The notes beneath the pieces were generated by a model. The model was not told where the DNA came from. It worked only from the letters and a program-made list of their open reading frames with translations, and searched no databases. Made by a program: the position numbers and the translations under genes. Shown here one piece after another: positions 23,859 to 43,651 of a DNA stretch of 64,000 bases. The stretch is from Solidesulfovibrio fructosivorans JJ] (GTDB lineage Bacteria > Desulfobacterota > Desulfovibrionia > Desulfovibrionales > Desulfovibrionaceae): assembly GCF_000179555.1 (NCBI RefSeq), contig NZ_AECZ01000003.1, positions 186,001 to 250,000 of the forward strand. Reading direction: 5' to 3'. Numbering within the stretch: the first letter of the stretch is position 1; every line of letters begins with the position of its first letter.

Positions 23859-25073
23859 ATGAGCAAACGCAGCAGCGTCGCGCTTGACACCGTCATCAAA
23901 CAGGCCATCAAGGTCGGCCGCTATCCCTGGATGGCCGGTCGCCTGGCGGCCGTGGAAAAAGAGAAGATTTTCTTTTCGGCGCTCAATCCCCACGCCGAAA
24001 CCGGTCATGCCCGCAGCATCCGGCAGCTTTCCATCCGCATCACCGACATGTGCAACCTGCGCTGCCATACCTGCGGCCAGTGGGGCGACCACGGCTTTTT
24101 GCACGGGAAAAACCTCAAGGACCTAAAAAAGCAGGAAATCACGCCCGAGCGCTACTTGGCGCTGCTGGAAGACCTGGCCCGAAACGGCCACCACCCCTCG
24201 GTCTACCTTTGGGGCGGCGAGCCGACCATGTACAAGGGATGGCTGGAGATCGTGGAACGGGCCACGGAACTCAAAATGCCCACCTCCATCGTCACCAACG
24301 CCACCAAGCTGGTGCCCGCCGCCGACCGGCTGGCCGCGGCGCCGCTTTTTCTGCTCCAGATTTCCATCGACGGCCACGACGCCGCGACCCACAACGCCGC
24401 GCGTCCCTCGGCCTCGGGTGGCGACAACCACAAAGTGATCCAGGAGGCCCTGGCCGCAGTCAAGGAGGCCAAGAAGGCCCACAAGACCAAGCTGCCCCTG
24501 GTGGCCGCGCTGTGCACCATCTCGAGCGCCAACGTGAACCACCTGGTCGACATCTACGAGGCCTACAAGGACCGGGTCGACATCTTCGTCTACTATCTCT
24601 CCTGGTGGATCGACGAGAAGAGCGCCAAGGCCCACGACGAGGATTTCGCCCGGCGTTTCGGGTTCACGCCCAAGCTGCATTGGGGCTGGGTCGGCGATTG
24701 GACCATCAAGGACCACGAGACCCTCGACAAGCAGCTCGCCGAGGTCAAGCGCCGTTCCAAGGGGTTCGGCAAGCCCGCCGTCAACATCATCCCCAACATC
24801 ACGGGCTTGGCCAACCTCAAGGAATACTACACCAATCACGAGGCCACCTTCGGCTACAACCAGTGCATCTCCATCTACCAGGCGGTGGAGCTCGATTCCA
24901 ACGGCGACATGTCCCCCTGCCGCGACTACCACGATTACATCGTCGGCAACGTGCGCGAGCACACCATCACCGAGCTGTGGAACAGCGAGGCCTACCGCCG
25001 CTTCCGGGCGAGCCTGCACACCGAGGGACTCATGCCCTCGTGCACGCGCTGCTGCGGGTTGATGGGGTATTGA
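23859..25073 (+). CDS. Radical SAM protein with SPASM-like C-terminus
   Basis: 404 residues. The AdoMet [4Fe-4S] motif is CNLRCHTCG (CxxxCxxC) near residue 65, followed by YLWGGEPTMY, the GGEP AdoMet-binding strand. The C-terminus has further cysteines (CISIYQAV...CRDYHDYIVGN...CTRCCG) resembling a SPASM/twitch auxiliary-cluster region. SPASM enzymes modify peptides or sugars; the substrate here is unknown. Its stop overlaps the ATG of a glycosyltransferase (TGATG), so the two are translated together. That favours a role in making or decorating a glycan or glycoconjugate (inference). Confidence 0.88.
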   Translation: MSKRSSVALDTVIKQAIKVGRYPWMAGRLAAVEKEKIFFSALNPHAETGHARSIRQLSIRITDMCNLRCHTCGQWGDHGFLHGKNLKDLKKQEITPERYLALLEDLARNGHHPSVYLWGGEPTMYKGWLEIVERATELKMPTSIVTNATKLVPAADRLAAAPLFLLQISIDGHDAATHNAARPSASGGDNHKVIQEALAAVKEAKKAHKTKLPLVAALCTISSANVNHLVDIYEAYKDRVDIFVYYLSWWIDEKSAKAHDEDFARRFGFTPKLHWGWVGDWTIKDHETLDKQLAEVKRRSKGFGKPAVNIIPNITGLANLKEYYTNHEATFGYNQCISIYQAVELDSNGDMSPCRDYHDYIVGNVREHTITELWNSEAYRRFRASLHTEGLMPSCTRCCGLMGY

Positions 25074-26167
25074 TGGCCGAGCCTTCCCGCCCGGCGCGCG
25101 TTGTCTTCCTGTTGCAGGACCTTTTTTTCGGCGGCACCCAGCGACAGGCCCTGGAGTTGGCCGCGCGCCTCGATCGCGACCGTTTCGCCCCGGAATTCTG
25201 GATGCTGGCCGGCGGCCGGGACTTCGCGCCCCATGCCGCCCGGGCCGGCATTCCGCTCACCTGGCTTTGCGCCGCGCCCAAGGTGACGACCGCTTCGCTT
25301 CGCGCCCTGTGGAAAAAGCTCGAAACCGAGCGGCCGGATCTGCTGGTGCCGCTGACCGCCGTGCCCAACATCTGGGGCCGGGTGTTCGGCCGCCTGCGCA
25401 GGCTGCCCGCCGTGGTCGGCACCTGCCGGGGCGGCGGGGCCATCAAGCGCCAGCATGAGCGCTGGCTCAAAAACACCGTCGCGCACCACATCGTCAACGC
25501 CGCGCCGCTGAAAGACGCGCTCGTGCGCCTGGGCCGGCCCGAAGACAAGGTCGCCTGCATCCCCAACGGCGTGGACACGGAGTATTTCGCGCCGCCGCCC
25601 GAGGAGATGCGCCCGGTGCGCGAGGTGGTGCTGTGTCCGGCGCGCTACTGCGAGGACAAGGACCACGAAACGCTGCTTACGGCCTTCGAGCGCACGGTGG
25701 CCGAGCGGCCGCGGGCCGAATTGTGGCTGGTCGGCGACGGGCCGCTGCGCACCCGGGTGCGCACGCTTGCCGCCCGCAGCCCGGTGCGCGGGGCCATCCG
25801 CACCTATCCCGCCGCGCCCGATCCCAGGCCGTTTTTCCAGCAGGCTTCGGTGGTCGTGCTCTCCTCGGTGCGCGAGGGCTTGCCAAACGTGATCCTGGAG
25901 GCCATGAGCATGGGCATACCGGTCGCGGCCACGGCGGTCGGCGGCATCCCGGACGCGGTCGAGCCCGAACGCACGGGGCTGCTCTGCCCGCCGCGCAATC
26001 CCGAGGCGCTCGGCGCGAACATGGCCCGGCTGCTCGCCGACGAGGACCTGCGCCGGCAATACGGGGAAAACGCCAGGGCGCGGGTGCTGGAACAATTCTC
26101 CATGGAAGCGATGGTCCGTCGTCACGAAGCCGTGTTTACACAGGTGCTGGCGCAAGCGGCCGGGTAA
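25073..26167 (+). CDS. Glycosyltransferase family 4
   Basis: 364 residues, GT-B fold. The N-terminal domain starts VVFLLQDLFFGGTQRQALEL (acceptor-side loop GGTQR). The C-terminal donor domain has IPNGVDTEYF, LVGDGPLR and the EX7E-type SSVREGLPNVILEAMSMGIP. Transfers a sugar from a nucleotide donor, probably on the cytoplasmic face of the membrane; donor and acceptor unknown. The ATG overlaps the radical SAM stop by 1 bp. Confidence 0.93.
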   Translation: MAEPSRPARVVFLLQDLFFGGTQRQALELAARLDRDRFAPEFWMLAGGRDFAPHAARAGIPLTWLCAAPKVTTASLRALWKKLETERPDLLVPLTAVPNIWGRVFGRLRRLPAVVGTCRGGGAIKRQHERWLKNTVAHHIVNAAPLKDALVRLGRPEDKVACIPNGVDTEYFAPPPEEMRPVREVVLCPARYCEDKDHETLLTAFERTVAERPRAELWLVGDGPLRTRVRTLAARSPVRGAIRTYPAAPDPRPFFQQASVVVLSSVREGLPNVILEAMSMGIPVAATAVGGIPDAVEPERTGLLCPPRNPEALGANMARLLADEDLRRQYGENARARVLEQFSMEAMVRRHEAVFTQVLAQAAG

Positions 26168-26228
26168 GGCGCGTCTCCCCGGACTTTCCCCGATGGGGCC
26201 GGGGTTCCGGTCGCCGGAGGCATCCCCT

Positions 26229-26657
26229 ATGAAGACTTTTCTGCTGTCGTTGCTGGTCCTCGCCGCCCTGTGCGGCACGGCCATGGCCCGGGAAGTGAAC
26301 GTGAACGGCCTGTGGCGCGGCAGCCTCTACGGATCGGATTTGCAGGCCCGCGTGGAGCAGGACGGGCACAACGTCAAGGCCGAGGTGGTGGTCCACGCCA
26401 TGACCGGCGAAACCAACGTCTACCATGTGGTGGGCGCGATCTTTAACGGCCACATGTACGTGGTCCACGGCAGCGGGCACGTGTTCGAGGGCGACGCCAA
26501 GGGCGACGCCATTCGCGGCGTGCTGACCACCAAGGGCGGCAGCAAGCTCGAACTCGAGGCCACCCGGGTGCCGCTCAAACCCGGCGGCAAATCTCCGGCC
26601 GCCGCCGGCTCTTCCGCTTCCGGGCCCGCGACCAAGGCGTCGCGCCGGCCGGGATGA
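26229..26657 (+). CDS. Small secreted protein
   Basis: 142 residues with a signal peptide (MKTFLLSLLVLAALCGTAMA). The mature part (VNVNGLWRGSLYGSDLQARV...GHMYVVHGSGHVFEGDA) looks like a small beta-sheet domain in which WRG and repeated Gly-containing strands suggest a lipocalin- or OB-like barrel. It ends in a Pro/Ala/Ser tail. Function unknown; placed between two glycosyltransferases. The first 12 codons of the longer frame (from 26193) are rejected because they precede the signal peptide. Confidence 0.75.
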   Translation: MKTFLLSLLVLAALCGTAMAREVNVNGLWRGSLYGSDLQARVEQDGHNVKAEVVVHAMTGETNVYHVVGAIFNGHMYVVHGSGHVFEGDAKGDAIRGVLTTKGGSKLELEATRVPLKPGGKSPAAAGSSASGPATKASRRPG

Positions 26658-26679: not shown

Positions 26680-27837
26680 GTGACGGCGTTTGCGTTTACG
26701 GTCATGGCCGTGCAGCTTGTCGTGCTGACGGCCCTCTACCTGCTTGGCCGCCGCCATGTGCGCGGCGGCGACGGCCCCGAACCCATGCCCGAAACCTGTC
26801 CCCGGCTGGCGGTCATCGTACCGGTCACCGGCGACCATCCGGGCATGCGCGAGGCCGTCGCCTCGCTGTTGGACCAGGATTATCCCGATTTCACGGCCAT
26901 CTTCGTCACGGCCACGGCCGATGACCCGGCCGTTTCCCTGGTGAAAGGGGTGGCCGGGAACGACCCGCGCCTGCTTATGGTCGTGGCCGGCCCGGCCACG
27001 CGCTGCGGCCAGAAAAACCATAATATCCTGGCCGGCATCCGGGCGGCGGCGACAGCCGAACTCTTCGTCTTTTGCGATTCGAGCCATGTGGCCGACCGCC
27101 ATTTCCTCACCAATTTGGCCGCGCCCATCATCCGGGGCGACGCGCCCATGACCAGCGGCTTCCACAAGATCGTGCCCGGCGACGGCAAGACCGGCACCAT
27201 CGGCATGGCCACCACCTGCATGGCCCTGCACCTGCTCCAGCCGATACGGGCCATCACCCAGCCCTGGGGCGGGGCCATGGCCATCTCGCGCCAGGCATTC
27301 GACCGTTTCGGGCTGCGCGAGCTGTGGGGCAAGAACATCGTGGACGATTTCTCCATGGGCCCGCATCTGCATCGCTTCGGCGTGGCCGCCTGGCCCGTGG
27401 CCGCCGCCTGCCTGGAAACGCCCATGGCCGGAGTGCCGCTTTCGCGCTGGGACGACTGGCTCACGCGGCAGCTGCTATACCTCAAGTTCTGCATCCCGCC
27501 GGGCTGGCTCGTCTCGATCCTGGCGGTCTTCGTGCTGTCCGCGCCGCCTGTGTTCGCGGCGCTCCTTCTCATCGGTTGGTGCTTCGGCTGGACCAGCCCA
27601 ATGGTTGGCTGGGGCGCGCTGGTCTATGCCGCCGATTTTCTCGGGCTGGGGCTGGCCTACCGCACCTTGTGCCCGCGTCCGGTCGGCATCCTCGCCTGGC
27701 TGCGGGGCTACGTGGCCACGTTCCTGATGCTGGCCCGCTGCTTCGGCCGCACCTTCGTCACCGGCTCCATGTCCTGGCGGGGCATCAGCTACAAGGTTGG
27801 CTGGGGCGGCGTGGTCAAGGAAATCCGCCGGGGGTAG
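26680..27837 (+). CDS. Membrane glycosyltransferase, GT21/HpnI-like
   Basis: 385 residues. An N-terminal membrane helix (FTVMAVQLVVLTALYLLGRR) is followed by a GT-A catalytic domain: LAVIVPVTGDHPG, FCDSSHVADRHFL (D..S variant of DxD) and WGGAMAISRQAFDRFGLREL, then NIVDDFSMGPHLHRFG. Three to four C-terminal membrane helices follow. The layout matches ceramide-glucosyltransferase and hopanoid HpnI-type enzymes, which glycosylate lipids. No other hopanoid genes are in the window, so the lipid is unknown. GTG start with GGAGG upstream. Confidence 0.85.
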   Translation: MTAFAFTVMAVQLVVLTALYLLGRRHVRGGDGPEPMPETCPRLAVIVPVTGDHPGMREAVASLLDQDYPDFTAIFVTATADDPAVSLVKGVAGNDPRLLMVVAGPATRCGQKNHNILAGIRAAATAELFVFCDSSHVADRHFLTNLAAPIIRGDAPMTSGFHKIVPGDGKTGTIGMATTCMALHLLQPIRAITQPWGGAMAISRQAFDRFGLRELWGKNIVDDFSMGPHLHRFGVAAWPVAAACLETPMAGVPLSRWDDWLTRQLLYLKFCIPPGWLVSILAVFVLSAPPVFAALLLIGWCFGWTSPMVGWGALVYAADFLGLGLAYRTLCPRPVGILAWLRGYVATFLMLARCFGRTFVTGSMSWRGISYKVGWGGVVKEIRRG

Positions 27838-28016: not shown

Positions 28017-28382
28017 CTATTGCTGGTTGCGGTAGCCCCAGGCCGGAGCCTGGTCCGGCGGGGCGTTGCGGTGCTTTTTCTTCTTCTGCTTGGACTGCTT
28101 CTTTTGCTGGCCGGGCGGCATATTCCAGTTCGAGTCGTAGTTTTTCCCGGGACCGGCATAAGAGGATTTCCCCTTGGGCGAAGCCTGGTTGCCTTTCTGT
28201 CCGGCGTATGAGGGAGGGCCGTAGGGCGGCGTCTGGTCGCCCTTGTGGCCGGAATACGACGGCGGCCCGTAGGATGGGGCCTGTCCTTGCTGCCCCTGTC
28301 CTTTCTTGGCCAGGGCCGGAACGGCGCATAGGGCCATGGCCAGAAAGAGTGTCGCCAGGCATGGAATCGGGTGTATGCGCAT
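28017..28382 (-). CDS. Small secreted low-complexity protein
   Basis: 121 residues with a signal peptide (MRIHPIPCLATLFLAMALCA, cleavage near VPALA). The mature part repeats GPPSYSGHKGDQ / GPPSYAGQKGNQ-type units and then a lysine-glutamine-rich run. No enzyme motif. Such tails suggest a periplasmic or surface-exposed disordered protein. GGGAGCC precedes the ATG. Convergent with the HpnI-like gene. Confidence 0.65.
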   Translation of the reverse strand: MRIHPIPCLATLFLAMALCAVPALAKKGQGQQGQAPSYGPPSYSGHKGDQTPPYGPPSYAGQKGNQASPKGKSSYAGPGKNYDSNWNMPPGQQKKQSKQKKKKHRNAPPDQAPAWGYRNQQ

Positions 28383-28680
28383 AAGCGGCTCCCTTCGTGG
28401 TGCGGTGGTGTTTTGGGTGGCTTCAAGCAAGATCGAGTCCAGCCCGCGTCCGCGGGGATTTGCCGCAACGGGTGGCGAAATGCGGCAAAGGGGGCATAAC
28501 AACCTACGCCTTTTCCACGAAATCAGGAAATCACTTTCACCACATAATGGAAATTTGACGATTCTTCGGAAGACCTCGCCCAGGTCTCATTTCCCCGGCC
28601 CTTCCCAACGGCTTTTCTCGGTTGCAGTGTGCTCTCGCGGACCCCGCCGTAACCATTGAAAGTTTTGGGGAGGGGAGAGC

Positions 28681-28749: not shown

Positions 28750-30210
28750 CTACGCCAGTCCGGCCTGGGCCTTCTGGGCGGCCAGTTCCTTTTTCCAGCG
28801 CAGGATGAGGAAGACGAAGGGGACCAGGGCCAGGGCTTCGGGAATTTCCCGGATGCCGAGCGGCGCTGTGGCGAAGTAGAGTCCCGCGCCCGCGGCGCAG
28901 GCCGCCGCGATGCGCCACATGGATTTGACGTCGATGATGCGCATGGTTGCCTGGCAGTAGGTCGTGGTGGTCACGGCCACGGCCGCCTTGGTCAGGAGCA
29001 TGGCCAGGCAGGTGCCGAGCAGCGGATCGGTCGGGATGAGGGTGGCGCACAGGGCGAGGTTCACGGCCAGGCCGCCGATGTAGATGACCAGGAGCAGGCG
29101 CTGCTTGCCCTGGCTCATCATCAGGTAGGCCGAGAGGTTGTGCACGAAGCCGCAGATGATGGTGCCGACGAGCCATTTCTGCATCCACATGGCGTCGTGG
29201 TAGGCCCCGCCGTAAACCAGGCCGATGAGGCGGTCGGATTCGATGAAAAGCACGAACATCACGGGGATGGAGATGCCGATGAGCCAGCGCACGGAATTGT
29301 TGGCCAGGCGCTTGAATTCGCGCCGGTCGTTTTTCCACAGGCGCACGAACAGCGGATAGAGGACGCTTCGCAGCAGGAGGTTGGAGACGATGATCGAGAT
29401 GCCGTCCACCATCTCCCAGGTGACGCTGTATTGGGCCACCTTGGTCGGACCGCCGTTGCTTTGCAGGAAATAGAGGTTGGCCTTGTTGTAGAGGATGGCG
29501 GCCAGGGCCATGAGCACGAACACGCTGCCGTGCTTGGCTGTGGCCCAGGTGCGGGCCAGGGATTTGCGCTTGAGGGTCAGCCCGGCGAAATCGGTCTTCT
29601 TGAGGGCTATCCAGATGCCGCCGGACAGGTTGGACACGTTCTCGATGACTTTGAAGAGCGCGATCCAGTGTGGCGCCGCGCCGAGGGCCAGAAGCCCGAT
29701 GGCGTAGCCGTAGCCGAGGACCCCGGAGATGACCTTGATGCGGCCCTCCAGGTCCTGCCGGCCTTCCACGCGGATGGCCACGAAAAACGAGCTGGCCACG
29801 GCCTCGAGCCCCACGCCGGCCGAAATGACCATGACCAGGTTTTTCAGTCCCGGTGTGTAGCCCTGCCAGTAGATGAAGCCCACCACGCCGAACCAGCCCG
29901 TGACGAGCAGCAGGCTTTTGAGCAGCGTGTACTGGGCCAGGATGTCGCCCTTGTGGCTGTATTTCTTGCTGAGGGCCGACACCAGAGGCTGGTTGAGGCC
30001 GAATTCGCCGAGAAAGAGGATGATGGAGGCCAGGCCGAAGGCCACCATGAATTCACCGTAATCGCTGGTGGAAAGCCGGGCCAGGTAGATCAGGAAAAAC
30101 GTGTGCAGGGCGTCGTGAATCCACTGCGCTCCAGCGAGATGGGCGAACTTGTTGAGAATGCCATAGGACGGACGAGCGGCCTTTTTTGGGGGGGGCGAGA
30201 CTTGGGGCAT
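28750..30210 (-). CDS. Polysaccharide/lipid flippase (Wzx/MATE-like)
   Basis: 486 residues, hydrophobic, with about 12-14 predicted membrane helices. The N-terminal part (FLIYLARLSTSDYGEFMVAF, FLGEFGLNQPLVSAL) is typical of polysaccharide biosynthesis exporters of the MOP superfamily. It would move a lipid-linked glycan across the inner membrane. The ATG at 30210 is chosen because GGGAGGGGG lies 8 nt upstream; the frame continues to 30261 without a site. It starts 54 bp after the radical SAM gene with the repeat tail, so the two are probably one operon. Confidence 0.88.
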   Translation of the reverse strand: MPQVSPPPKKAARPSYGILNKFAHLAGAQWIHDALHTFFLIYLARLSTSDYGEFMVAFGLASIILFLGEFGLNQPLVSALSKKYSHKGDILAQYTLLKSLLLVTGWFGVVGFIYWQGYTPGLKNLVMVISAGVGLEAVASSFFVAIRVEGRQDLEGRIKVISGVLGYGYAIGLLALGAAPHWIALFKVIENVSNLSGGIWIALKKTDFAGLTLKRKSLARTWATAKHGSVFVLMALAAILYNKANLYFLQSNGGPTKVAQYSVTWEMVDGISIIVSNLLLRSVLYPLFVRLWKNDRREFKRLANNSVRWLIGISIPVMFVLFIESDRLIGLVYGGAYHDAMWMQKWLVGTIICGFVHNLSAYLMMSQGKQRLLLVIYIGGLAVNLALCATLIPTDPLLGTCLAMLLTKAAVAVTTTTYCQATMRIIDVKSMWRIAAACAAGAGLYFATAPLGIREIPEALALVPFVFLILRWKKELAAQKAQAGLA

Positions 30211-30264
30211 TGGGGTTTCCCCCTCCCGGCCGCCGGGCGACCGGGAGGGAAGGCGGGACAACGG

Positions 30265-32091
30265 CTAACGAGCCTTGGATTTTTTCTTGCCGGGCTTGCC
30301 GGCTTTTTTCGCCGGCTTGTCGGCGGCTTTGGCCTTGGCCGATTTGGCCCCCTTGGCGGTCTTTGCCGGCGCGGCCTTGGCGGCCGGTTTCGGGGCCGGT
30401 TCGGGCTCCGCCTTGGGTGCGGGCTTGGCTTCAGGCTCGTTGGCGGGCTCGGGTTCTTTCGCCGGGGCGGCAGCGGCCTTGGGTTCGGCTTTCTTCACCG
30501 GTTCGGGCTCGGGCGCGGCTTCCGGGGCCTTGGCCGCTTCGGGCTCGGGCTCCTTGGCCGGCGTCGGCTCGGGAGAAACCACGGCCGGCGGAACGTCGAC
30601 CTTTACGGCCGGTTCGCTCATGGCCTTGGCGGCCGGGGCGGTTTCCTGGCGCGGCGCGGGCACGGGCTCCGGCTCTTTGACCGGTTCGGGCGCGGGTTCC
30701 GGTTTGGGTTCCGGTTCCTTGACGGGTTCCGGTTCGGGCTTGGGCTCCGGAGCGGGGGCCGGCTGCGGGGCCGGTTCAGGCTCTTTCACCGGTTCCGGCG
30801 TGGGCTCGGGTTCCTTGGTCGGCCCGGGAGCCGGTTCGGGCGTCGGCTCGACCTTGGGGGACGGCTTGCCGGCGCAGCAGCCGCGCGGGGCGCACTGGAT
30901 GAACGCGCCGAACTTCTCCAGCTCGTCCACCCGGCAGCTCCAGACCATCTTGCCGTCGTGGAAGATGGAGTCCGGGCAGCCGTCGCACATGTCCTGGCGA
31001 CCGTCGTCGAGCAGGTCGCAGGGCTGGATGACCATGATCGACTGGATATTGAGCGGCTTGAACCACATCTTGGGCCGGGTGAGCAGCTTGCAAAAAATTT
31101 TGCGCAGGCTTTTGTTGAACAGCGTCAGCAGGGCCAGCTTCTGCACCCCGCGCATCCAGCACGGCCGCGAATAGGCGAGGTAGGTGCCGAAGAAAAGGTG
31201 ATGGAAAATCTGGGTCCATTCGGCGAACTTGGCGTCGAGATAGCCCAGGATCTCGTTCTTGTCGCCGACGCGAAGGGTCAGGAGCCACTTCATGGACAGC
31301 GGATTCTCGGTGCCGTTTAAGTAGGCGCAGGGCTCGTGGTCGGGGTAGGCCAGGCGGATGGCGTCGGCGATCTCCTGGGAGGAGAGGTCCTGGTGCTCTT
31401 CCTGGTTGTCGAGCTGGTAGACGAGGTTGCCGACGTCGACGGGACGGCCGTTGGCGAACACGTCGAAATTGTTTTTCTTTCGCGCCGAGCGGAACAGGAT
31501 GAACACCATCGTCTGGATGATGTCGATATGCTCGTGGGCGAACCGCGTGAGCATGGGGATTTCGGAGAGCGTGTCGCGGTAGATGGTGGCGTTAAACGAG
31601 CAGGCGATCTTGCCCTCTCCGTGCTCGTGGATCATGTTGGCGAGTTTGAGGCGCAACTCGCACAGATCCTTTTCGCTGGCCCCTTTCCAGCCGGGACGGC
31701 GCTGGTGCGAGTCCACGTGCATGGTGAAGCCGACGAGGCCGGCCGCGGCCAGCTCGCGCACGAGTTCCGGGGTGAGCGCCTGGCCGTTGGAGTTGATGAT
31801 GGGCTTCCAGCCCTTGGAGGCCACGTACCGGACCAGGGGAACGATGTCGGGGTAGATGAGGGGTTCGCCGCCGGCGATGGAGATGCCGTCGGTGCGCCGC
31901 AGCTTTTTGACTTCCTCAAGTTCCCGGATGACGTCGGCCAGGGGCCTGTGCCCGTCGGGGTTGTTTTCGCGATAACAACCCTCGCAGTACAGATTGCACT
32001 TGGTGGTCGGCTCGAGCCAGGTGATGGCGTTGTCGGCCAGGTTCCAGGGCAGGCGATAATATGAACCCGGGGTAAGCGGTCGTTTTCTCAT
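30265..32091 (-). CDS. Radical SAM protein with long PE/PK-repeat, histone-like tail
   Basis: 608 residues in two parts. Residues 1 to about 404 form a radical SAM enzyme with CNLYCEGC (CxxxCxxC) near residue 33 and [11 protein letters not shown]. Extra cysteines come later ([25 protein letters not shown]), giving a possible auxiliary cluster. Residues about 405-608 are low complexity: EPxPEP/VKEPEP repeats, then a Lys/Ala/Pro-rich end ([18 protein letters not shown]) like bacterial histone-H1-like tails. The ATG at 32091 has GGAG upstream. Substrate unknown. The tail could bind an anionic partner such as a polysaccharide, nucleic acid or membrane. Confidence 0.85.
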
Positions 32092-32389: not shown

Positions 32390-33373
32390 CTAAAATCCCC
32401 GGTCCAACGCCCCGACGATGGCCCCGGGCGCGCCGCCGGCGCTACGCGGCATGAGCCGTCCGAGGATGGGCACGCGCCGCGCCGCCTCGCGAAACGCGGC
32501 CGAGCGCCGCAGGTTGACCACGAGCAGGGTCAGAATCATGACCGGGAAGGGCGCGATCTGAAACAGCGTGCCCGAAAGCCCGGGCAGCGCGTCCTGGAGC
32601 GCGATGCCGGCCACCTGGATGGCGGCGAAAAAGACCGCGCCGAACGCCACCCGCACCGGCTTCCAGCCGCCGAAGATGACGATGGCCAGGGCGATCCAGC
32701 CCGCGCCTTCGCAGCCCTGCGGATGGCCCCAGCCGGGCTTGACGGCCAGGGAATAAAAACCGCCGGCGCACCCAGCCATGGCCCCGCCGGCCAGACAGCA
32801 CCAAAAGCGCACCCTGGCCACGGAAAATCCCCGCGCCTTGGCCGCCTCGGGCGATTCGCCAACCGCCCGCACGAGCAGCCCCGCCTTGGTGCGCAGCAGG
32901 AAAAACCAGACCCCGGCCACGGCGAGCAGGCTTAAAAGCACCACCGGGCTCTGGTGGAACACGCCCTTGCCGAGAAACGGCAGGTCGGCCAGCCCCGGGA
33001 TGTCGAGGACGCCGAGGTTCGGCCCCGGCCGGCGCGCCTGGGTATGGCCCAGGAAATAGGCCAGCTCGCGGCAAAAAAGCGTCAGCACGAACCCTACGGC
33101 CAGCTCCGAGACCCGAAGCGTCTGGCCGAAAAGGATCAGCACCGCCGCCACCGCCGCCCCGGCCCCGGCCCCGGCGGCCAGTCCCAGCCAGGCGTTGCCG
33201 CTTATCCGGGCCACGGTGAAGGCGGCCATGGCGGCAAAAAGGAGCGTGCCGTCGAGCGACAGGTTGATGACCCCGGCGCGCTCGGCCACGGTCTCGCCAA
33301 GCGCGGCCAGGATCAGCGGCGCGGCGGCGAAAAGCACCGAGGCGAACAGCGCCTCCATATAGCCGAAACTCAC
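32390..33373 (-). CDS. BMP-type ABC transporter permease (second)
   Basis: 327 residues, integral membrane, with GVINLSLDGTLLFAAMAAF near the N-terminus, the BPD_transp_2 signature of branched-chain/nucleoside/simple-sugar permeases, and VRAVGESPEAAKARGFSV as the coupling loop. Pairs with the preceding permease. Start GTG at 33373: it overlaps the upstream stop as GTGA and has GGAGG 7 nt before it; an internal ATG at 33358 is the alternative. Confidence 0.9.
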   Translation of the reverse strand: MSFGYMEALFASVLFAAAPLILAALGETVAERAGVINLSLDGTLLFAAMAAFTVARISGNAWLGLAAGAGAGAAVAAVLILFGQTLRVSELAVGFVLTLFCRELAYFLGHTQARRPGPNLGVLDIPGLADLPFLGKGVFHQSPVVLLSLLAVAGVWFFLLRTKAGLLVRAVGESPEAAKARGFSVARVRFWCCLAGGAMAGCAGGFYSLAVKPGWGHPQGCEGAGWIALAIVIFGGWKPVRVAFGAVFFAAIQVAGIALQDALPGLSGTLFQIAPFPVMILTLLVVNLRRSAAFREAARRVPILGRLMPRSAGGAPGAIVGALDRGF

Positions 33374-34413
33374 GGCTTCCTCCGCGATACGGCCGGCCAC
33401 AGTCCCCTGGCCGCGAAAAGGGTCAGCACCAGCACGCCCTGGATGACGCCGGCCAACGAGGAGTCCAGGGACAGGGACAGGGGCAGCTGGATGGAGCCCA
33501 CGGCCAGGGCGGCGAAGAAAAGACAGGCCACGGGCACGGCCGGCAGGCTGCCCGAGGCCAAAAGCACGGCCAGGATGGCGGTGTAGCCGTAGTTGCCGGA
33601 AACGGAAGGGATGAGCCGGTGGTAGAGCCCGGCGATGAGCACTCCGCCGGCAAGGCCGGCAAGCGCCCCGCCGATGCCCATGGCGGCGAGAATGCGGCGC
33701 TTGGGGGCGAGGCCGAGCCGTTCGGCGGCCAGGGAATTCTGGCGCACGGCGGAAAGGGTCAGGCCGAAAAAGGTGCGCGTGAGGAGCCAGGCCACGCCGA
33801 GAAAGGCCAAAACGGCCAGGATCGGGCCGACAAGGCTCATGGGACGTCCGCCGAGCGTCGGCAGCCACAAGGCGTGATCGAGCGGGGCCGTGCCGCTTAG
33901 GGAGGCCATGCCAGGACGCTTCCAGGGACCGAGGATCAGCCACAGCGATACGCCCGTGGCCACGAAATTGAGCCCCAGGCCGGAAAAGATCTCGTGCACC
34001 CGGCCATGGGTGCGCAGCACGCCGGATAAAAGCGCCCAGGCCGCGCCGCCGGCCATGGCGCAAAGAAGCGACAAAGCGACGGCAAGCCCCGGCGGCAGGG
34101 TCCCGGCGGGAGAAACGGCGCGCAGAAACCACAGGCCGCCGAGCGCCCCCATGGTGATCTGCCCCTCCACGCCGATGTTCCAGAGATTGGCGGCGAAGGT
34201 GACGCAAAGGGCCGCGCCGCACAAAAGCAGCGGGGCGAAGGAGGACAGGGTGCGCAGCCAGGCCGCTTCGGAGCCGAAACCGCCCTGGGCCATGACGGCC
34301 AGGGTTTCCAGAGGCGGCGCGCCCGAGGCGGCCACGATGGCGAGGGTTGCCGCCAGGGCCAAACCGACGGCGAAAGCGGTCCGGGCCAGGGCGCGGGGAG
34401 CGGCGCGCATCAT
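33370..34413 (-). CDS. BMP-type ABC transporter permease (first)
   Basis: 347 residues, about 9 membrane helices. It contains LWNIGVEGQITMGALGG, the characteristic motif of nucleoside/simple-sugar permeases, and the coupling loop VRQNSLAAERLGLAPKRRIL. Forms a heterodimeric channel with the next gene product. The ATG at 34413 overlaps the ATPase stop by 4 bp. Confidence 0.9.
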   Translation of the reverse strand: MMRAAPRALARTAFAVGLALAATLAIVAASGAPPLETLAVMAQGGFGSEAAWLRTLSSFAPLLLCGAALCVTFAANLWNIGVEGQITMGALGGLWFLRAVSPAGTLPPGLAVALSLLCAMAGGAAWALLSGVLRTHGRVHEIFSGLGLNFVATGVSLWLILGPWKRPGMASLSGTAPLDHALWLPTLGGRPMSLVGPILAVLAFLGVAWLLTRTFFGLTLSAVRQNSLAAERLGLAPKRRILAAMGIGGALAGLAGGVLIAGLYHRLIPSVSGNYGYTAILAVLLASGSLPAVPVACLFFAALAVGSIQLPLSLSLDSSLAGVIQGVLVLTLFAARGLWPAVSRRKP

Positions 34414-35909
34414 GATGCCGTCTCCGCCACGGCCCGGCCGGTCATGAGGTCGCCGACGAGCCCGGCCTGCAATTCCCCGGCCGGCAGGTCGGCCACGATT
34501 TCCCGGTTGTAGAAAACGAGCGCCCGGCCGGCATGGGCCAGTAGTTCGTCGAGGTCTTCGGAAAAAAAGAGCACGGCGGCGCCCGCGGCCGCGCGCTCCC
34601 GGAAATGGTCCCATATCTGGGCGATGGAGGCCGCGTCCAGGCCGCGCGTGGGGTTGTCGGCCAAAAGGAGTCTGGTGTCGTCCGGAATGAGCGAGAGCAG
34701 CAGGCGCTGCTGGTTGCCGCCGGAAAGGGAGGCGGCCGGGGCGGCCGGGGTGTCGGTCAGGCGGAAGCGGCCCACGCAGCGTTCGGCGAAGATCGCCGCC
34801 GCCTGCCGGCGCTTGTCGGGAAAAGCCAGCCTGACGTGGTCGAGCAGGGAAAGCCCCGGGAAAAGCCCTTCCTCCATGCGCGAGGCGGGCAGGTGGTGGA
34901 CCCCGGCGGCCAGGAACCGCCGGGCCGGTTTGCCGGCGAGATTTTTGCCGTCGATTTCCAGTTCGCCGGCCACGGTCCGGGCGATGCCGGCCAGGCCGCG
35001 CAAGAAGGCCTCCTGGCCGCCGCCGGCGATGCCGGCCAGACCGACGATTTCCCCGGGGCGAATGGTCAGGGTGCAGGGCGAAAGCACGATCTTTTCGTCG
35101 GCGATGACGGCCTCGCGCAGACGCGCCAGCGGCCGCGCTTCCCGCGACGGCGCGGGCCGGGGCGCGGGCGCGACCGGCCTGTCCAGGATGTCGCAGAGCA
35201 CCTCGCCCTGGCCGGCGAACATGGCCGATAGGATCGCCGGGCCGCCAAGGGGCGCGTCAAAGGCGCCGGCCAGCCTGCCCTGGCGCAGGACGTAGACCTT
35301 GTCGCAAAGCTCCTTTGCCTCGGCCAGCTTGTGGGTGACCAGGGCCACGATGCGCTCGCCGTCGGCCACGAAGGCGCGCAGCACGCCGAAAAGCGCTTCC
35401 TTCTGGGCCGGGGAGATGCCCGTGGTCGGCTCGTCGAGGATCAAAAGGCGCACGTCGCGGTCCATGAGCCGGGCCAGCTCCAGGTGCTGGCGCTGGGCCA
35501 CGGACAGGTTGGCGGCGGCCACGTCGGGCGGGAGGTCGAAGCCCATGCGGGCGCAGACCGCGCGCAGGCGCCGCCTGGCCTCGGCCCGGGAGCGGACCTC
35601 GCCGCCGCTTATGGCGAAGTTTTCCCAGACCGTAAGCGGCGGGAAATCGAGCGGGTCCTGGGGCAGCATGCCGATGCCCAGGCGCGAGGCCGCCTCGGGC
35701 GAAAGCTTCCCATGGTCCCGGCCGTCGATGCGGATGACGCCCGCGTCCGGGGCGTAGACCCCGGAGAGCACGCGCATGAGCGTCGACTTGCCGGCCCCGT
35801 TTTCGCCGAGAATGCCGTGGATGCGGCCCGGGGAAAGCGTCGCCGTGACGCCGTCGTTGGCGGCGAGTTCCCCGAACCGCTTGACGATGCCGGAAAGGAC
35901 GACCTCCAT
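34410..35909 (-). CDS. BMP-type ABC transporter ATPase, two fused domains
   Basis: 499 residues with two nucleotide-binding domains. The first has Walker A GENGAGKST near residue 35, LSVAQRQHLELARLM and LLILDEPTTG. The second has a degenerate Walker A region (GIAGGGQEAFLRGL), the ABC signature LSGGNQQRLLLSL and LLLADNPTRGLD. One strong and one weak site in a fused ATPase is usual for sugar/nucleoside importers of this type. Same operon as both permeases and the binding protein. Confidence 0.92.
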   Translation of the reverse strand: MEVVLSGIVKRFGELAANDGVTATLSPGRIHGILGENGAGKSTLMRVLSGVYAPDAGVIRIDGRDHGKLSPEAASRLGIGMLPQDPLDFPPLTVWENFAISGGEVRSRAEARRRLRAVCARMGFDLPPDVAAANLSVAQRQHLELARLMDRDVRLLILDEPTTGISPAQKEALFGVLRAFVADGERIVALVTHKLAEAKELCDKVYVLRQGRLAGAFDAPLGGPAILSAMFAGQGEVLCDILDRPVAPAPRPAPSREARPLARLREAVIADEKIVLSPCTLTIRPGEIVGLAGIAGGGQEAFLRGLAGIARTVAGELEIDGKNLAGKPARRFLAAGVHHLPASRMEEGLFPGLSLLDHVRLAFPDKRRQAAAIFAERCVGRFRLTDTPAAPAASLSGGNQQRLLLSLIPDDTRLLLADNPTRGLDAASIAQIWDHFRERAAAGAAVLFFSEDLDELLAHAGRALVFYNREIVADLPAGELQAGLVGDLMTGRAVAETAS

Positions 35910-35933
35910 GTGCTGGCTCCGGGAACACGCCCC

Positions 35934-37115
35934 CTATTTGGAGGCGCTGGCCCCTTCCATGCCGCGCAGAAGCTGCGGACAGAACCACAGTTCCTTGTCC
36001 GTGGCCGTGTGCCCCGCCGTCAGGAAGACCGAGCCGTCCTGGTATTCCAGGGGGCCGGCGTAGAGGTTCACCTTGCCCGAACCGAGGTCGGCGACAAAGG
36101 CGTCCAGGGCCTTTTTGGCCTCGGCGGAAAGCCCTTTGCCGGGCAGGAAGCCGACCGGGCTCTTGTCCGGGTCGTTTAAGGCGGCGAAATCCGGGGACAG
36201 CCAGGTGAAGGCGGGCTTGTAGGTCCCGTCGGTCACGGCCTTGGCGATGGTCAGAAACGGAGGGCCCCAGTTGAAGTAGGGAACGCCAAGGCAGGCCTCG
36301 GGCGCGCCCTGGCAGGCGTCCTTATAGTCGTAGGGCAAGGCGTGGACGTCGGCGCCGGCGCTGCGGCGGGCGGCGGCCACGGTCAGGGCCTCGGGGGTGT
36401 CGATGCCGGAGATGACCACGTCGAAGCCCTGGTCGAAAAAGGAGCCGGCCAGCTGGTTGGGGTCGGAGGTGACGCCCGGGATGTTGAACCAGAAGCCGAT
36501 CCAGGAGACCTTGAAGGTAAGGTCCTCGGGCTTTTTGCCGCGCACGTCGACCCAGGCGTGGCGCGCGCCGAGGAAGGCGGCGTCGGCCAGGCGTCGGGTC
36601 TCGTCGTTAATGAGCGGCCCCAGGAAGCCGATCTTGCCGGTCTTGGTGGTCATGGCTGCGGAAAAGCCGGCCATCATCTTGGCGTATTCCATCTTGGAAA
36701 AGAGGTTGCCCAGGTTCTTCGGGGCCTTGCCGGTCAGCACGTCGTCGCCGGAAATGTGGACGAAGGTCAGTTCCGGGTGCTGGGTGGCGGCCTCGCGGAT
36801 GCCGTCCTTCATGTCGTCGGAGCCGGCGAAGATGAGCGTCGCGCCCTTGGCGGCCAGGTCGTCCACCACCTGCGGGATGGTGACCCCGGGCCGGTCGGCG
36901 GGGTTCAACTTGTCGAGGTAGAGCATCTTCGAGCCGGGCAGGTGGGCTTCGACGTACTTGCCGCCCTCGTACTGGGCCTGGCTGTAGCCTTTGTCGTTGT
37001 AGGGGCCGACAAGCAGCAGACCGAAAGTCAGCGGTTTGCCGGCGGCGAACGTCATGGCGGCGGTTGCGCACAAAAGGGCGAAAGCCGCCGCAAGGATCAG
37101 CGAAACGCGGCGCAT
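35934..37115 (-). CDS. BMP-family substrate-binding protein
   Basis: 393 residues with a signal peptide (MRRVSLILAAAFALLCATAA). The mature protein opens KPLTFGLLLVGPYNDKGYSQ, the typical BMP/PnrA start (G...D.G.n), and continues with FAGSDDMKDGIREAA. Family members bind purine nucleosides or, less often, other small solutes; purine nucleosides are the default guess. First gene of the transporter operon, with GGAGG before the ATG. There is no N-terminal lipobox, so it is probably free in the periplasm. Confidence 0.88.
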   Translation of the reverse strand: MRRVSLILAAAFALLCATAAMTFAAGKPLTFGLLLVGPYNDKGYSQAQYEGGKYVEAHLPGSKMLYLDKLNPADRPGVTIPQVVDDLAAKGATLIFAGSDDMKDGIREAATQHPELTFVHISGDDVLTGKAPKNLGNLFSKMEYAKMMAGFSAAMTTKTGKIGFLGPLINDETRRLADAAFLGARHAWVDVRGKKPEDLTFKVSWIGFWFNIPGVTSDPNQLAGSFFDQGFDVVISGIDTPEALTVAAARRSAGADVHALPYDYKDACQGAPEACLGVPYFNWGPPFLTIAKAVTDGTYKPAFTWLSPDFAALNDPDKSPVGFLPGKGLSAEAKKALDAFVADLGSGKVNLYAGPLEYQDGSVFLTAGHTATDKELWFCPQLLRGMEGASASK

Positions 37116-37200
37116 GATGGGGCCTCCTTCAGGCTTGATGGGAATGCGGTCGGGGCACTGTAAAAAAAGCGGGGGCGATGCGCCAGGGGCAAGGGACGAT

Positions 37201-38265
37201 TTACGACCGTCCCGGCAGCCGTCCCTCGCGTAAAAACGCTTCAACCAGGGCAAAGACCTTGTCGTTGCCGTAAAATTTCCCCTCGGCGATGCGTCGGCGC
37301 ATGTCCGGGAGGCCTTTTTCGAAATCCGGCAGCAGTTCCGGCGTCAGCCGGTCCATGGAGGCGGACCGGCCGTAGCCCAGGCGCTCCAGGTAAATGGCGT
37401 TTAACTGTTGCTCGAACGCGCCGGGCACCGGAAACGACAGCACCGGCTTGCCGAAATAGAGCGCCTCGCTCATGAGGTTGTGGCTGCCGCCGCAGACCAC
37501 ATAGGCGCACGAGGCCAGATCGTCGAGAAAGCCTTCCTCGGAGTAGCCGCGAAAGGTCAGGTTCCCTTCCACCTTGTCCACGCGGTAGCCGTAGACGCGA
37601 AATTCCCGGTCGAGGGTCCGCAGATACGGCGCGAAGGCGTCGCGGATGCCGCAACTCTGGTATACCAGGATGTGCGAACCGTGGCTTGGCGTGCGTGTAA
37701 CCACCGAGCGCCGCAAGATGGGCGGGGCGACCACGGCCCTGGCCCCGGGCTTGGTCGGGGGCTGGTAGAAGGAGATGGAAAGGTAGTCGCTGGCGGCGGA
37801 AAAAAGAAAGCGGATGGAAGCCAGAATCCCCCAGTAATCGGGCAGCAGCCTTGCCGACACGTCGTGGCGGCAGCAGGAGATCACGTGCTGGTGGTCCAGG
37901 GACAGGCAGGGGATGCCGGCCCGCTTCGCCGCGATGGGCACGAAATATTCGTAGTCGGAGATGGCCGCGTCCGGGCGGAAATCGCGGATCATGCCGGCCA
38001 GGCGGGCGAGCTCCCCCCTTCGCCGCAGCAGGGTGCGCCCGGCGAGCTTGAGCGTCGCCGGGGTGTCCAGGCGCTGGTTTTTGTAGCGCGTGCCCGGGTT
38101 CTCGAAGCGTTCCACCGGGAATTCCCGCGACAGGAGCTGCGCGCCCTCTTCGCTGGAAACGAAAAGGAACTCGTGGCCGAGCGTCGCCAGATGGCGGGCC
38201 AGGATAAGGGCGCGGATGGCGTGGCCGTGCTGGGAGCCGTGCACGCCGTAGAGAATGCGGGCCAT
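37201..38265 (-). CDS. MJ1255/VC2487-like glycosyltransferase
   Basis: 354 residues. MARILYGVHGSQHGHAIRAL (the GxGxGH-like N-terminal loop), SDYEYFVPIAAKRAGIPCLS and the C-terminal CAYVVCGGSHNLMSEALYFGKP with PVPGAFEQQLNA follow the GT28/MurG-like GT-B pattern of the MJ1255/VC2487 glycosyltransferase group. Substrate unknown. No good ribosome site lies directly before the ATG at 38265; a GGAGG is too far upstream. It follows the transporter genes on the same strand after 85 bp but is probably separate. Confidence 0.8.
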   Translation of the reverse strand: MARILYGVHGSQHGHAIRALILARHLATLGHEFLFVSSEEGAQLLSREFPVERFENPGTRYKNQRLDTPATLKLAGRTLLRRRGELARLAGMIRDFRPDAAISDYEYFVPIAAKRAGIPCLSLDHQHVISCCRHDVSARLLPDYWGILASIRFLFSAASDYLSISFYQPPTKPGARAVVAPPILRRSVVTRTPSHGSHILVYQSCGIRDAFAPYLRTLDREFRVYGYRVDKVEGNLTFRGYSEEGFLDDLASCAYVVCGGSHNLMSEALYFGKPVLSFPVPGAFEQQLNAIYLERLGYGRSASMDRLTPELLPDFEKGLPDMRRRIAEGKFYGNDKVFALVEAFLREGRLPGRS

Positions 38266-39082: not shown

Positions 39083-39197
39083 GCTTTATTTCCTATCGCT
39101 TCTCTGTGAAATGCCGCGCCGCCGATGCAACGCGGCCTTGCCTCCCTGCGCCGGACTGCATTGACAGGAACCGCGAGGCGTGGAATTGCATGGAACC

Positions 39198-40391
39198 ATG
39201 CAAATACGCCTTGTCCCCCTGCTTGTCCTTGTGGCCCTGGTCGTTGGCTGCTCCGGCGAGAAACCGCAAAAAAGCACGCCGCCGCGAGAGGTTACGGCCC
39301 CGGTCAAAGCGGCGACGCGCCGCCCCGTGGTGGAGTGCCGGTCGTTTCCGGCCGAGGTGGAGTCGCAAAACAGCGTCACCCTGGCCAGCAAGGTGTCCGG
39401 CGCGGTGGAGTCCGTCCTCGCCCGCGAGGGCGACGCGCTGCACGCCGGGCAGTTGATCATGCGCATCGACGACAAGGACCTCACCAGCCAGGAGCAGGGG
39501 CTTGTCGCTTCCAAGGAGCAGATCTCCCGCGAACGCCAGTCGCTTCTCGCCAAGGCCTCCCTGGCCAAGACGACCATGGAGCGCATGCGTCGGCTGCTCG
39601 CCCAGCGCGTCGTGAGCCAGGAGGACTTCGACAAGGCCCAGTCCGAATACGAGTCCCTGACCCGGCAGGTCGAGGCGGCCGCGGCCCAGGAAAACACCGT
39701 TACCGCCAAGGCCGGCGAACTGGCCGCGCTTCGGGCCTACACCCGCATCACCGCGCCCTTCGACGGCATCCTGGCCAGACGCTACGTGGACCAGGGCGCC
39801 TTCGTCACCGCCGGTTCGCCCCTGGCCCTGGTCGACCAGTCCGGCGGCGGCTTCGAGCTGGCCGCCCAGGTGGACGAATCGCTGCTGGCCGGCCTGCGCC
39901 AGGGCCAGACCATCCTGGCCGTGGTGCCGGCCCTGGCCCCGGCGCCTTTCGTCGTCACGGTTTCGGCCATCGTCGGCCGGGTGGACCCGGCCAGCCGCAC
40001 CTTCAAGCTCAAATGCGCCCTGCCCGACGCCGTGCCCGGAGCCGACGGCCCGCCGCGCGCCGGCATGTTCGGCCGGGTGTTCGTGCCGGCCCGCACCGCC
40101 GAAAAGCTGCTCCTGCCCGAAACCTGCCTGGCCCATCGGGGCGATCTGCCCACCGTGGCCGTGGTCGGCAAGGACGACATCCTGCACTTTCGGGTGGTCA
40201 AGACCGGCGCGACCTTCCTGGCCGCCAAGTTCGACGGCAAGACCTACCTGACCGACTCGCAGGCCTTCGAGGGCGCGGGCGGAGAGCATTTCGTGGACGT
40301 CTTAAGCGGTCTTGCCGACGGCGAACGCGTGGCCTGCGACCCCGGAGCCACCTTGCGCGAGGGCGACCGGCTGGCCGGAGCGGCGAAATGA
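39198..40391 (+). CDS. RND efflux periplasmic adaptor lipoprotein
   Basis: 397 residues. The signal ends in the lipobox LVVGC, so it is probably anchored as a lipoprotein. Membrane-fusion-protein domains are visible: barrel-sandwich half (VTLASKVSGAVESVLAREGD), alpha-hairpin (about 95-175), second lipoyl half (YTRITAPFDGILARRYVDQG) and beta-barrel. It links the inner-membrane pump to an outer-membrane channel, which is not encoded here. ATG chosen at 39198; an in-frame GTG at 39180 is an alternative. The stop overlaps the pump ATG by 4 bp. Confidence 0.92.
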   Translation: MQIRLVPLLVLVALVVGCSGEKPQKSTPPREVTAPVKAATRRPVVECRSFPAEVESQNSVTLASKVSGAVESVLAREGDALHAGQLIMRIDDKDLTSQEQGLVASKEQISRERQSLLAKASLAKTTMERMRRLLAQRVVSQEDFDKAQSEYESLTRQVEAAAAQENTVTAKAGELAALRAYTRITAPFDGILARRYVDQGAFVTAGSPLALVDQSGGGFELAAQVDESLLAGLRQGQTILAVVPALAPAPFVVTVSAIVGRVDPASRTFKLKCALPDAVPGADGPPRAGMFGRVFVPARTAEKLLLPETCLAHRGDLPTVAVVGKDDILHFRVVKTGATFLAAKFDGKTYLTDSQAFEGAGGEHFVDVLSGLADGERVACDPGATLREGDRLAGAAK

Positions 40392-43300: not shown

Positions 43301-43651
43301 CCGGCCCATGCCCTGGCCGGGGCCTTTTTCACGGCCACGTCCATGATCGGCTTTATCGCCGGGGCGGGCATCGTTGTGCGCAACTCCATCATCCTCGTGG
43401 ATTTTATAGAAATGCGCCGGGGGCAGGGGGAAACCCTGGAGCGGGCGGTGGAGGAGGCCGGGGCGGTGCGCTTCAGGCCCATGTTACTCACCGCCATCAG
43501 CGTGGTGGGCGGGGCCTTCGTGATCCTGTTCGACCCCATCTTTCAGGGCCTGGCCATATCGCTTATGGCCGGCGAGGTGGCGGCCACCATATTTTCCCGC
43601 ATGGTGGTGCCGGTCATGTACTATCTCGACGCCCGGCGCACGGCCCGCTGA
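40388..43651 (+). CDS. RND efflux transporter
   Basis: 1087 residues, full-length inner-membrane proton-driven pump. Two hydrophobic helix sets (about 330-540 and 860-1070) separate two large periplasmic loops. The proton-relay pair of acidic residues appears in GILVDDPIVDVENIVRHL. The N-terminus has a His-rich start (ERQEHHGHHSD) before the first helix, which could bind metal, though the rest resembles HAE1-type drug/hydrophobe exporters more than CusA. Its substrate cannot be deduced. Coupled to the adaptor by an ATGA overlap. Confidence 0.92.
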   Translation: MTEPERQEHHGHHSDWLTRVTAVFVDSKLAPLFILAAVLTGVLAVWATPSEEEPQILVPMIDIHVTMPGATPKEIENRVVTPMERILWEVPGVEYVYSTAGAGQAMTVVRFKVGENMEKSLVAAYTKLYQHLDWIPPGCFRPILKPHSIDDVPVLVAALWGGPYDARQLRVMANAVSEEVRRIPGVAETTVTGGRKRTVMVEPAPDRLRAQGLDMVSVVDAIGLQNKGQTIGDAFQSGKAVSIRLDNFFRTQKELSRAVVAVKNGRPVYLADVATIRDGFDEPADYVFFLPGHGLVKDGQAPGAAYPAVTLAIAKRAGENATKIADEALKRIKGLRGYVLPADVNLTVTRDYGETAKAKVDELLEHLILAAVTVGGVVALFLGLRASLVVMVAVPVTLAITLATYWLMGYTLNRVTLFALIFCIGILVDDPIVDVENIVRHLGLPGSRGKKLSDVIVEAVSEVRAPLVLATFTVIAAIAPMAYVGGLMGPYMRPMPVGASVAMLFSMLVAFCITPWTAKRALRPEPPGSGDAKPHGDIPDDVGTRAYLWLMDRLLKRPAWRWGFLGLVGLLFVGACSLFPAKRVLVKMLPFDNKSEFSVVVDMPRGTTLEETTAVCRELAAVVLKRPDVTEATLFAGTAAPMTFNGLIRHYYLRSGQNEAEIAVNLLPKSERSVQSHPIAKEVRQALSPIAAKYGAKIKVVELPPGPPVIQTLVAEIYGPTDQGRLAVARQVRDIMKKTPDVVDVDWYVDDPRPERVIRVERDKAQAAGIDPDRALSDVTASIAGTVAGLLHDELAREDAPIVVRLPLKDRADARDMGSIAVRGEGDRMVSLGQIASIREHVEPSQIYHKNLLPVIYVTGDVAGREESPIYAMNKVNATLEKIGKEGKGAWQTVSKAQLPILWTSMPEQTADYSMKWDGEWQITYEVFRDMGIAFAVVMVLIYILTVGWFGSYTTPLAIMAPIPLSLIGIIPAHALAGAFFTATSMIGFIAGAGIVVRNSIILVDFIEMRRGQGETLERAVEEAGAVRFRPMLLTAISVVGGAFVILFDPIFQGLAISLMAGEVAATIFSRMVVPVMYYLDARRTAR

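Follow-up and report, generated by a model that had tools for sequence, protein, structure and literature searches.

Which reaction does a radical SAM enzyme carry out that is encoded beside a flippase and continues into a long stretch of Pro, Glu, Lys and Ala, and what does such a tail contribute? This question is raised by RSAM1, a protein encoded in a 64,000 nucleotide stretch of DNA from Solidesulfovibrio fructosivorans JJ, the whole of which is called the window in the following. It belongs to a wider open question, namely by which enzymes bacteria join inert lipid carbons or alter them. In the accessible text of two articles (PMC8941075, PMC11868695) the role of the bacterial homologues of tetraether lipid synthase (Tes) stands without experimental confirmation, and the accessible part of the second presents Mss as a bacterial membrane-spanning lipid synthase. 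A search of the open-access literature for the RSAM1 protein, for the genus in connection with lipids and for tailed radical SAM enzymes returned nothing.

Our tentative answer is that RSAM1 is a Tes-like enzyme acting on lipid which would serve an exported glycolipid, with the tail as an accessory tether. The substrate and the chemistry are what we infer, and we hold this answer to be a real possibility that falls somewhat short of an even chance.

The catalytic half and its predicted fold

The gene and the parts of its catalytic half are located in the window as follows.

30265..32091, minus strand: RSAM1, radical SAM protein, 608 amino acids from an ATG start that is common to the relatives
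30898..32091, minus strand: catalytic half (residues 1-398), with the radical SAM core, cap helices and C-terminal cysteine motif
31975..31998, minus strand: CxxxCxxC motif (residues 32-39), identical in 64 out of 64 aligned sequences
31066..31161, minus strand: basic amphipathic helical stretch (residues 311-342), helices in the AlphaFold2 model
30934..31035, minus strand: M353-x15-C369-x2-C372-x13-C386, with the spacing x15-CxxC-x13-C in 64 out of 64 and Met in first place in 57 out of 64

RSAM1 belongs to the radical SAM superfamily: in a Pfam search PF04055 covers residues 27-178 with 62.6 bits (cut-off 29.5), and CxxxCxxC is present in all 64 aligned sequences. A preliminary description of the locus had pointed to this motif and to extra C-terminal cysteines; both are there, the latter at residues 358, 369, 372 and 386. 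Thirty-one residues precede the motif, none of them a cysteine. Within a widespread bacterial radical SAM family, which occurs in many phyla and has no family name, RSAM1 forms the branch of the Desulfovibrionaceae. A scan covered 84,980 species; 323 stretches encode a relative, 80 of these were kept, and the protein was gene-called in 70 out of the 80.

The alignment with 63 relatives (48-93% identical) revealed that the catalytic half is conserved over its whole length, with 63 invariant positions. The residues identical in all 64 rows include C32, C36, C39, C369, C372, C386, M368, H125, D127, S128, Q130, R132, W269 and H298, and less conserved are M353 (57/64), C164 (60/64), C255 (45/64) and C358 (16/64). 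C358 is kept in so few sequences that it cannot be a cluster ligand throughout the family; the ligands of an auxiliary Fe-S cluster are probably C369, C372 and C386. The stretch of residues 311-342 lies ahead of this cysteine motif. Over the 64 rows its net charge ranges from +3 to +11 and averages +6.3, and it is a candidate for a membrane-facing cap, although in the protein of the window the helical moment is higher for a helix at residues 41-64.

We compared RSAM1 to the NCBIfam collection and found no family above its cut-off among the matches listed (the best 25 of 35 families), nor in a second NCBIfam set (the best 25 of 33). The best match is NirJ2 with 59.6 bits (cut-off 500), above Tes; a tungsten-cofactor maturase reaches 51.1 of 380 bits, and AhbD and SuiB are among the weak matches in the family and fold comparisons taken together. 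These four could be taken as a hint that RSAM1 matures a peptide or a protein cofactor by SPASM- or twitch-like chemistry and that its gene neighbourhood is coincidental. We regard this as improbable, as all scores are far under the cut-offs, the neighbourhood is conserved in two genera and partly beyond, and a SPASM domain (PF13186) was not matched on RSAM1 at E 0.001 in the Pfam search. The second radical SAM protein encoded nearby does match it, with 55.6 bits.

Tes is an archaeal enzyme that fuses lipid tails, and the resemblance of RSAM1 to it is one of fold. The AlphaFold2 model of residues 1-406 was built with 64 sequences and has a mean pLDDT of 91.3. Aligned with VIA-align to PDB entries, this predicted model fits Tes with Z 26.1 and rmsd 3.4 over 315 residues (model residues 3-395), compared to Z 17.3 over 224 residues for viperin, the next entry other than Tes, 16.9 over 255 for MoaA and 15.1 over 239 for BlsE. 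Foldseek against the PDB also places Tes first (E 9e-13), with a TM of 0.58 by query length and at most 0.42 for the other matches listed. The predicted overall fold is thus Tes-like. By sequence, Tes is the best PDB match as well, in the core only (E 3.7e-8 with the single sequence, 6.4e-13 with the profile), with BlsE and SpeY among those that follow.

The preliminary description had suggested lipid-crosslinking radical SAM families for comparison. As to the predicted fold this suggestion holds; as to membership it does not, since RSAM1 scores 50.1 of the 450 bits required for Tes/GDGT-MAS in NCBIfam (residues 26-197 only), and the C-terminal halves of the RSAM1 family and of Tes score 13.6 in hhalign, which is within the range of 20 column shuffles (9.7-16.8). 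Folded alone, the C-terminal half of RSAM1 has a pLDDT of 85.6; Foldseek against the PDB at E 0.001 found nothing for it, none of 139 chains reached Z 2, and Tes was thus not matched either, though half of a domain may not be able to hold up by itself.

A further hint arises from the spacing of a methionine and the C-terminal cysteines. According to the accessible text of PMC9433317, Tes has a C-terminal cluster with a labile Met439, and amphipathic helices line its lipid pocket. From Met439 it is 16 residues to C455 and 31 to C470, if a 20-residue offset in the chain numbering, derived from the core cysteines, is applied; from M353 of RSAM1 it is 16 residues to C369 and 33 to C386. This similar spacing was noticed after the fact and is suggestive. 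The Tes-conserved C338 (numbering of the first row of the Tes alignment) has no clear counterpart in RSAM1, where C372 sits elsewhere. Tes further possesses, in the accessible text of the same article, a rubredoxin-like site (C9-x2-C12-x20-C33-x2-H36) and an N-terminal cluster [4Fe-4S]N (C73, C77, C80). Both are absent from RSAM1, and the Tes rows keep these cysteines. On the model, the catalytic half of approximately 400 residues appears to be built like Tes minus the N-terminal metal domains.

Two observations on relatives are reported here in their own right. On another contig of the same genome (L136:1474-2835) a TrsS radical SAM protein was found (NF045646, 628.5 bits, cut-off 490), which is the closest Tes relative of this genome by sequence (306.7 bits, under 450); the genome therefore has a Tes-related member besides RSAM1. 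Two distant relatives of RSAM1 in Desulfobacterota (L213 and L214, 35-37% identical by tblastn) carry CDGCPN and ISACR or VSACR in the C-terminal motif and could represent a sister subfamily.

Gene neighbourhood and candidate substrate

RSAM1 is flanked by genes which point to an exported glycan or glycolipid.

28750..30261, minus strand: Wzx-type flippase, directly downstream of RSAM1 (PF13440, 53.4 bits; ATG likely near 30210)
26680..27837, plus strand: GT21/HpnI-like glycosyltransferase (PF13506, 40.6 bits, cut-off 21.7)
26193..26657, plus strand: small protein with a signal-like N-terminus, without Pfam match, position conserved in the cassette
25073..26167, plus strand: GT4-type glycosyltransferase (PF00534, 110 bits)
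23859..25073, plus strand: second radical SAM/SPASM protein (PF04055 and PF13186 above their cut-offs)
37201..38265, minus strand: MJ1255-like glycosyltransferase (PF13528, 248 bits)

The flippase as neighbour, and a second radical SAM protein facing RSAM1 together with glycosyltransferase genes, had been proposed before and are borne out by the Pfam matches. The proposed link to an exported glycan or glycolipid gains from the comparison of 20 Desulfovibrionaceae neighbourhoods by tblastn: the flippase adjoins RSAM1 in 18, the GT21/HpnI-like glycosyltransferase occurs in 19 and the MJ1255-like one in 18 out of the 20, and several of the absences fall at contig or fetch ends. In Fundidesulfovibrio-type genomes the MJ1255-like gene is located next to RSAM1. 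The ABC/BMP transporter cassette that separates the two in the window is found there only in Solidesulfovibrio, so that it is probably a passenger.

Three further loci of the window were recorded. The ABC transporter with its BMP-type binding protein occupies 32390-37253, and the best NCBIfam match of two of its subunits is a putative B6 transporter, under the cut-off. Beside the flippase, at 28017-28502, a small protein is encoded that has a signal-like start, repeated GPPSY-type motifs and no Pfam match, and it is present in only 3 out of the 20 other neighbourhoods. RND efflux adaptor and permease genes lie at 39180-43651, the adaptor being above its cut-off.

How far does the cassette extend beyond the family? 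In a Desulfobacca MAG (L040/L209) flippase, RSAM1 relative and GT2 gene are collinear, and in a deltaproteobacterial MAG (L045) a GT2 gene adjoins the relative. Among 73 loci searched by tblastn (L039-L111, of which L046 and L047 belong to Desulfovibrionaceae) these were the only two outside Desulfovibrionaceae with a GT2 or flippase gene beside RSAM1. Six further genomes with a relative were detected among 395 of Desulfobacterota; two of them (L209 and L210) carry GT2, one also the flippase, and both resemble L040 and L045 again. In distant phyla gene clustering revealed no conserved neighbours, and no Pfam family was enriched among 76 immediate neighbours (4 occurrences at most), which were chosen from 98 listed; 3 out of the 57 loci concerned (L077, L092, L099) had been missed by the gene caller and are outside these counts. 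As conserved neighbours are confined to Desulfobacterota in these searches, the link to a glycolipid or glycan is local and a trait of this phylum, and the RSAM1 family at large seems to act alone.

The same cassette can be read in favor of a sugar substrate. RSAM1 might modify a sugar of the exported glycan by dehydrogenation, epimerisation or deoxygenation, comparable to BtrN, SpeY and BlsE, and the flippase would export an ordinary polyprenyl-linked glycan. Three glycosyltransferases together with a Wzx-type flippase, the additional radical SAM/SPASM protein of the cassette and the appearance of BlsE and SpeY among the PDB sequence matches are all in agreement with this role, which is the main rival to an action on lipid. 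However, BlsE fits the model clearly worse than Tes does (Z 15.1 over 239 residues versus 26.1 over 315), in many phyla the relatives lack a nearby glycosyltransferase of this kind, and SPASM is not matched on RSAM1. We consider a sugar-modifying role rather unlikely.

The charged tail

Beyond residue 398 RSAM1 continues into the tail, in which three parts were distinguished.

30265..30897, minus strand: low-complexity P/E/K/A tail with stop codon (residues 399-608)
30571..30663, minus strand: tail island (residues 477-507), ending in PPAV and three more residues
30268..30402, minus strand: basic Lys/Ala end of the tail (residues 564-608), net charge +14

The tail had been estimated at about 200 residues, and it comprises 210, of which 80% are Pro, Glu, Lys or Ala. 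Its first part has a net charge of -12 and its last 45 residues have +14 and contain no I, L, M, F, W or Y. That such a tail is unusual can be put in numbers: the best 80-residue stretch of RSAM1 consists of 94% P/E/K/A and ranks first among the 348 genes that were called in 464 kb of this genome, made up of the window and a sample of 400 kb, compared to 75% for the runner-up. This runner-up (L183:5452-6879) is a protein with a long P/E/A-rich stretch. We also considered the tail as a shared genomic module and rejected this, as no other gene of this genome carries the same tail; a whole-genome search for a second copy found none (best other match E 0.016).

The characterization as a PE/PK repeat stands with regard to composition. 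The repeat itself is not regular: the underlying DNA has weak tandem repeats (periods 18-30, 2-3 copies), and the tail is therefore low-complexity more than a regular repeat. In a similar way the term “histone-like” describes the composition and the basic Lys/Ala end of the tail but not its family, as the Pfam search matched no family on it. The Lys/Ala/Pro-rich end, which we take to be like histone H1 tails in composition, might place the enzyme on DNA or RNA as a nucleic-acid binder. Against this, the tail is for the most part acidic or neutral, and a nucleic acid offers no substrate logic beside a membrane cassette; we judge this role to be very improbable.

To find out who carries the tail, we compared its length among close strains, as the preliminary description had recommended. 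The catalytic half is present in 23 genomes among 199 Desulfovibrionaceae, namely 13 Solidesulfovibrio-type, 7 Fundidesulfovibrio-type and one each of three other genera; one Solidesulfovibrio-type genome (89% complete) gave no match to it. A tail was found in 12 out of 12 complete Solidesulfovibrio-type sequences (154-269 residues), the thirteenth being cut by a contig end and left outside the count, and in 7 out of 7 Fundidesulfovibrio-type sequences (84-145 residues), one of which is split over two contigs. As it stays in frame in these 19 members of two genera despite a length of 84 to 269 residues, the tail is translated. The remaining three Desulfovibrionaceae members have no such tail and stop 9, 11 and 35 residues past the catalytic half. 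Neither do 64 out of 64 relatives examined outside the Desulfovibrionaceae, which end 35-83 residues on, counted from CDGCPD (the 10 out of 80 loci in which the gene caller missed the relative are outside this count). In a tree of 37 catalytic halves 18 tailed rows form one clade, with support of 91/90, which falls short of the mark for strong support, and this clade adjoins two tail-less sequences. With a single tailed clade next to tail-less relatives, the tail probably arose in one event, and the enzyme does not need it for its basic work; the gain probably predates the split of Solidesulfovibrio and Fundidesulfovibrio.

The central place first given to the tail is weakened by a tail-less member of 407 residues (L021/L123). 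Its RSAM1 lies between the MJ1255-like glycosyltransferase and the flippase, in this order. The neighbourhood of the tailed proteins is thus kept as to the flanking genes, though not as to the GT21/HpnI-like glycosyltransferase, for which no match was found in L123. We rejected the tail as essential, as tail-less members exist in the same setting.

It is conceivable that the tail serves no function in itself, being a drifting low-complexity extension which is harmless in a GC-rich genome, and that residues 1-398 do the work on either kind of substrate. The variation in length from 84 to 269 residues, its absence in three Desulfovibrionaceae members and in all 64 outside relatives, and the retained neighbours of the tail-less L123 would fit such drift. 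Its presence in 19 out of 19 members of the two genera with the C-terminus on the contig would not, nor would the end, which is basic in every case (net +7 to +14 over the last 45 residues in 19 out of 19 tails of the two genera). A further argument against drift comes from the island, a short pattern (loosely VPAxRxxTxPAxKx(M/I)xxPxxKxxxPPA) flanked by variable stretches. It was detected by pattern in 11 out of 12 complete Solidesulfovibrio-type tails and in 2 out of 7 Fundidesulfovibrio-type tails; the twelfth Solidesulfovibrio-type tail (L017) differs at one pattern position and was read by eye, leading to 12 out of 12. A tail without function is possible in our view, though doubtful. The island, kept despite the drift in length, suggests a docking site, and the basic end would fit a tether to an anionic surface.

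Proposed mechanism and comparison with known systems

If RSAM1 acts on lipid, it would be placed at the inner face of the cytoplasmic membrane and work on the hydrophobic part of the glycolipid, an acyl or a polyprenyl chain. This glycolipid would be built by the three glycosyltransferases and exported by the Wzx-type flippase. Cleavage of SAM would yield the 5'-deoxyadenosyl radical, to which an unactivated carbon could lose a hydrogen. The substrate radical might then be held by the C-terminal cluster or give up its electron to this cluster. The product would be a modified lipid part of the exported glycolipid. The tail may serve as an extended spacer whose cationic end keeps RSAM1 near anionic lipid or partner proteins, and in Solidesulfovibrio the island, short and conserved, may provide a place for docking.

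A more far-reaching proposal is that RSAM1 founds a large bacterial family of small Tes-like enzymes without the rubredoxin and N-terminal cluster domains, whose radical chemistry is directed at unactivated carbons, either in the lipids of the membrane or in carrier lipids. This family would extend over Ignavibacteria, Gemmatimonadota, Actinomycetota, Planctomycetota, Myxococcota and Desulfobacterota. Among the Desulfovibrionaceae the enzyme would have become part of a cassette for glycolipid export and acquired a cationic, disordered arm which, by means of its docking island, holds it at the membrane with the flippase. In this full form the proposal is unlikely and is put forward as speculation. 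The tail alone is a modest curiosity and the catalytic family the better find: it is missed by a sequence search for Tes (50 of 450 bits) and yet has a Tes-like predicted fold, it occurs in many phyla, and it comes with a defined gene cassette in culturable sulfate reducers. The tail leaves a side question of its own, as this disordered arm was probably gained once and the enzyme does without it elsewhere.

Among known systems, HpnH (adenosyl-hopene transferase) acts on a lipid substrate, and it resembles RSAM1 by a weak match to the core (TIGR03470, 34.6 bits, cut-off 225). The GT21/HpnI-like glycosyltransferase of the cassette in turn resembles HpnI (84.6 bits, under the cut-off of 310). Hopanoids are unlikely as the substrate of RSAM1 and were rejected for this genome, in which neither the squalene-hopene cyclase C-terminal family PF13243 nor an HpnH above cut-off was found. 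The GMGT synthase Gms is likewise a radical SAM enzyme, which forms C-C bonds between lipid chains and has auxiliary clusters. According to the accessible text of PMC11186832 it possesses a helical domain at the N-terminus and a SPASM domain that carries two auxiliary clusters; on RSAM1 SPASM is not matched. Known Wzx-type flippase cassettes (PF13440, NF041871) share the combination of flippase and glycosyltransferases; the cassette described here differs in having two radical SAM genes, and its flippase scores 45.3 bits on NF041871, under the curated EPS cut-off of 800.

The closest comparison is the one with Tes/GDGT-MAS (MJ0619, PDB 7tol/7tom; NF045702). We also report that 10 out of 297 Desulfobacterota genomes (L149-L158) encode a Tes homologue above the NCBIfam cut-off and are candidates for bacterial membrane-spanning lipids. 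RSAM1 and Tes have in common the order of a radical SAM core, a helical cap and then a C-terminal cysteine motif, in which RSAM1 possesses CxxC where the Tes rows keep one cysteine. Judged by its model, RSAM1 may be called folded like Tes rather than a Tes.
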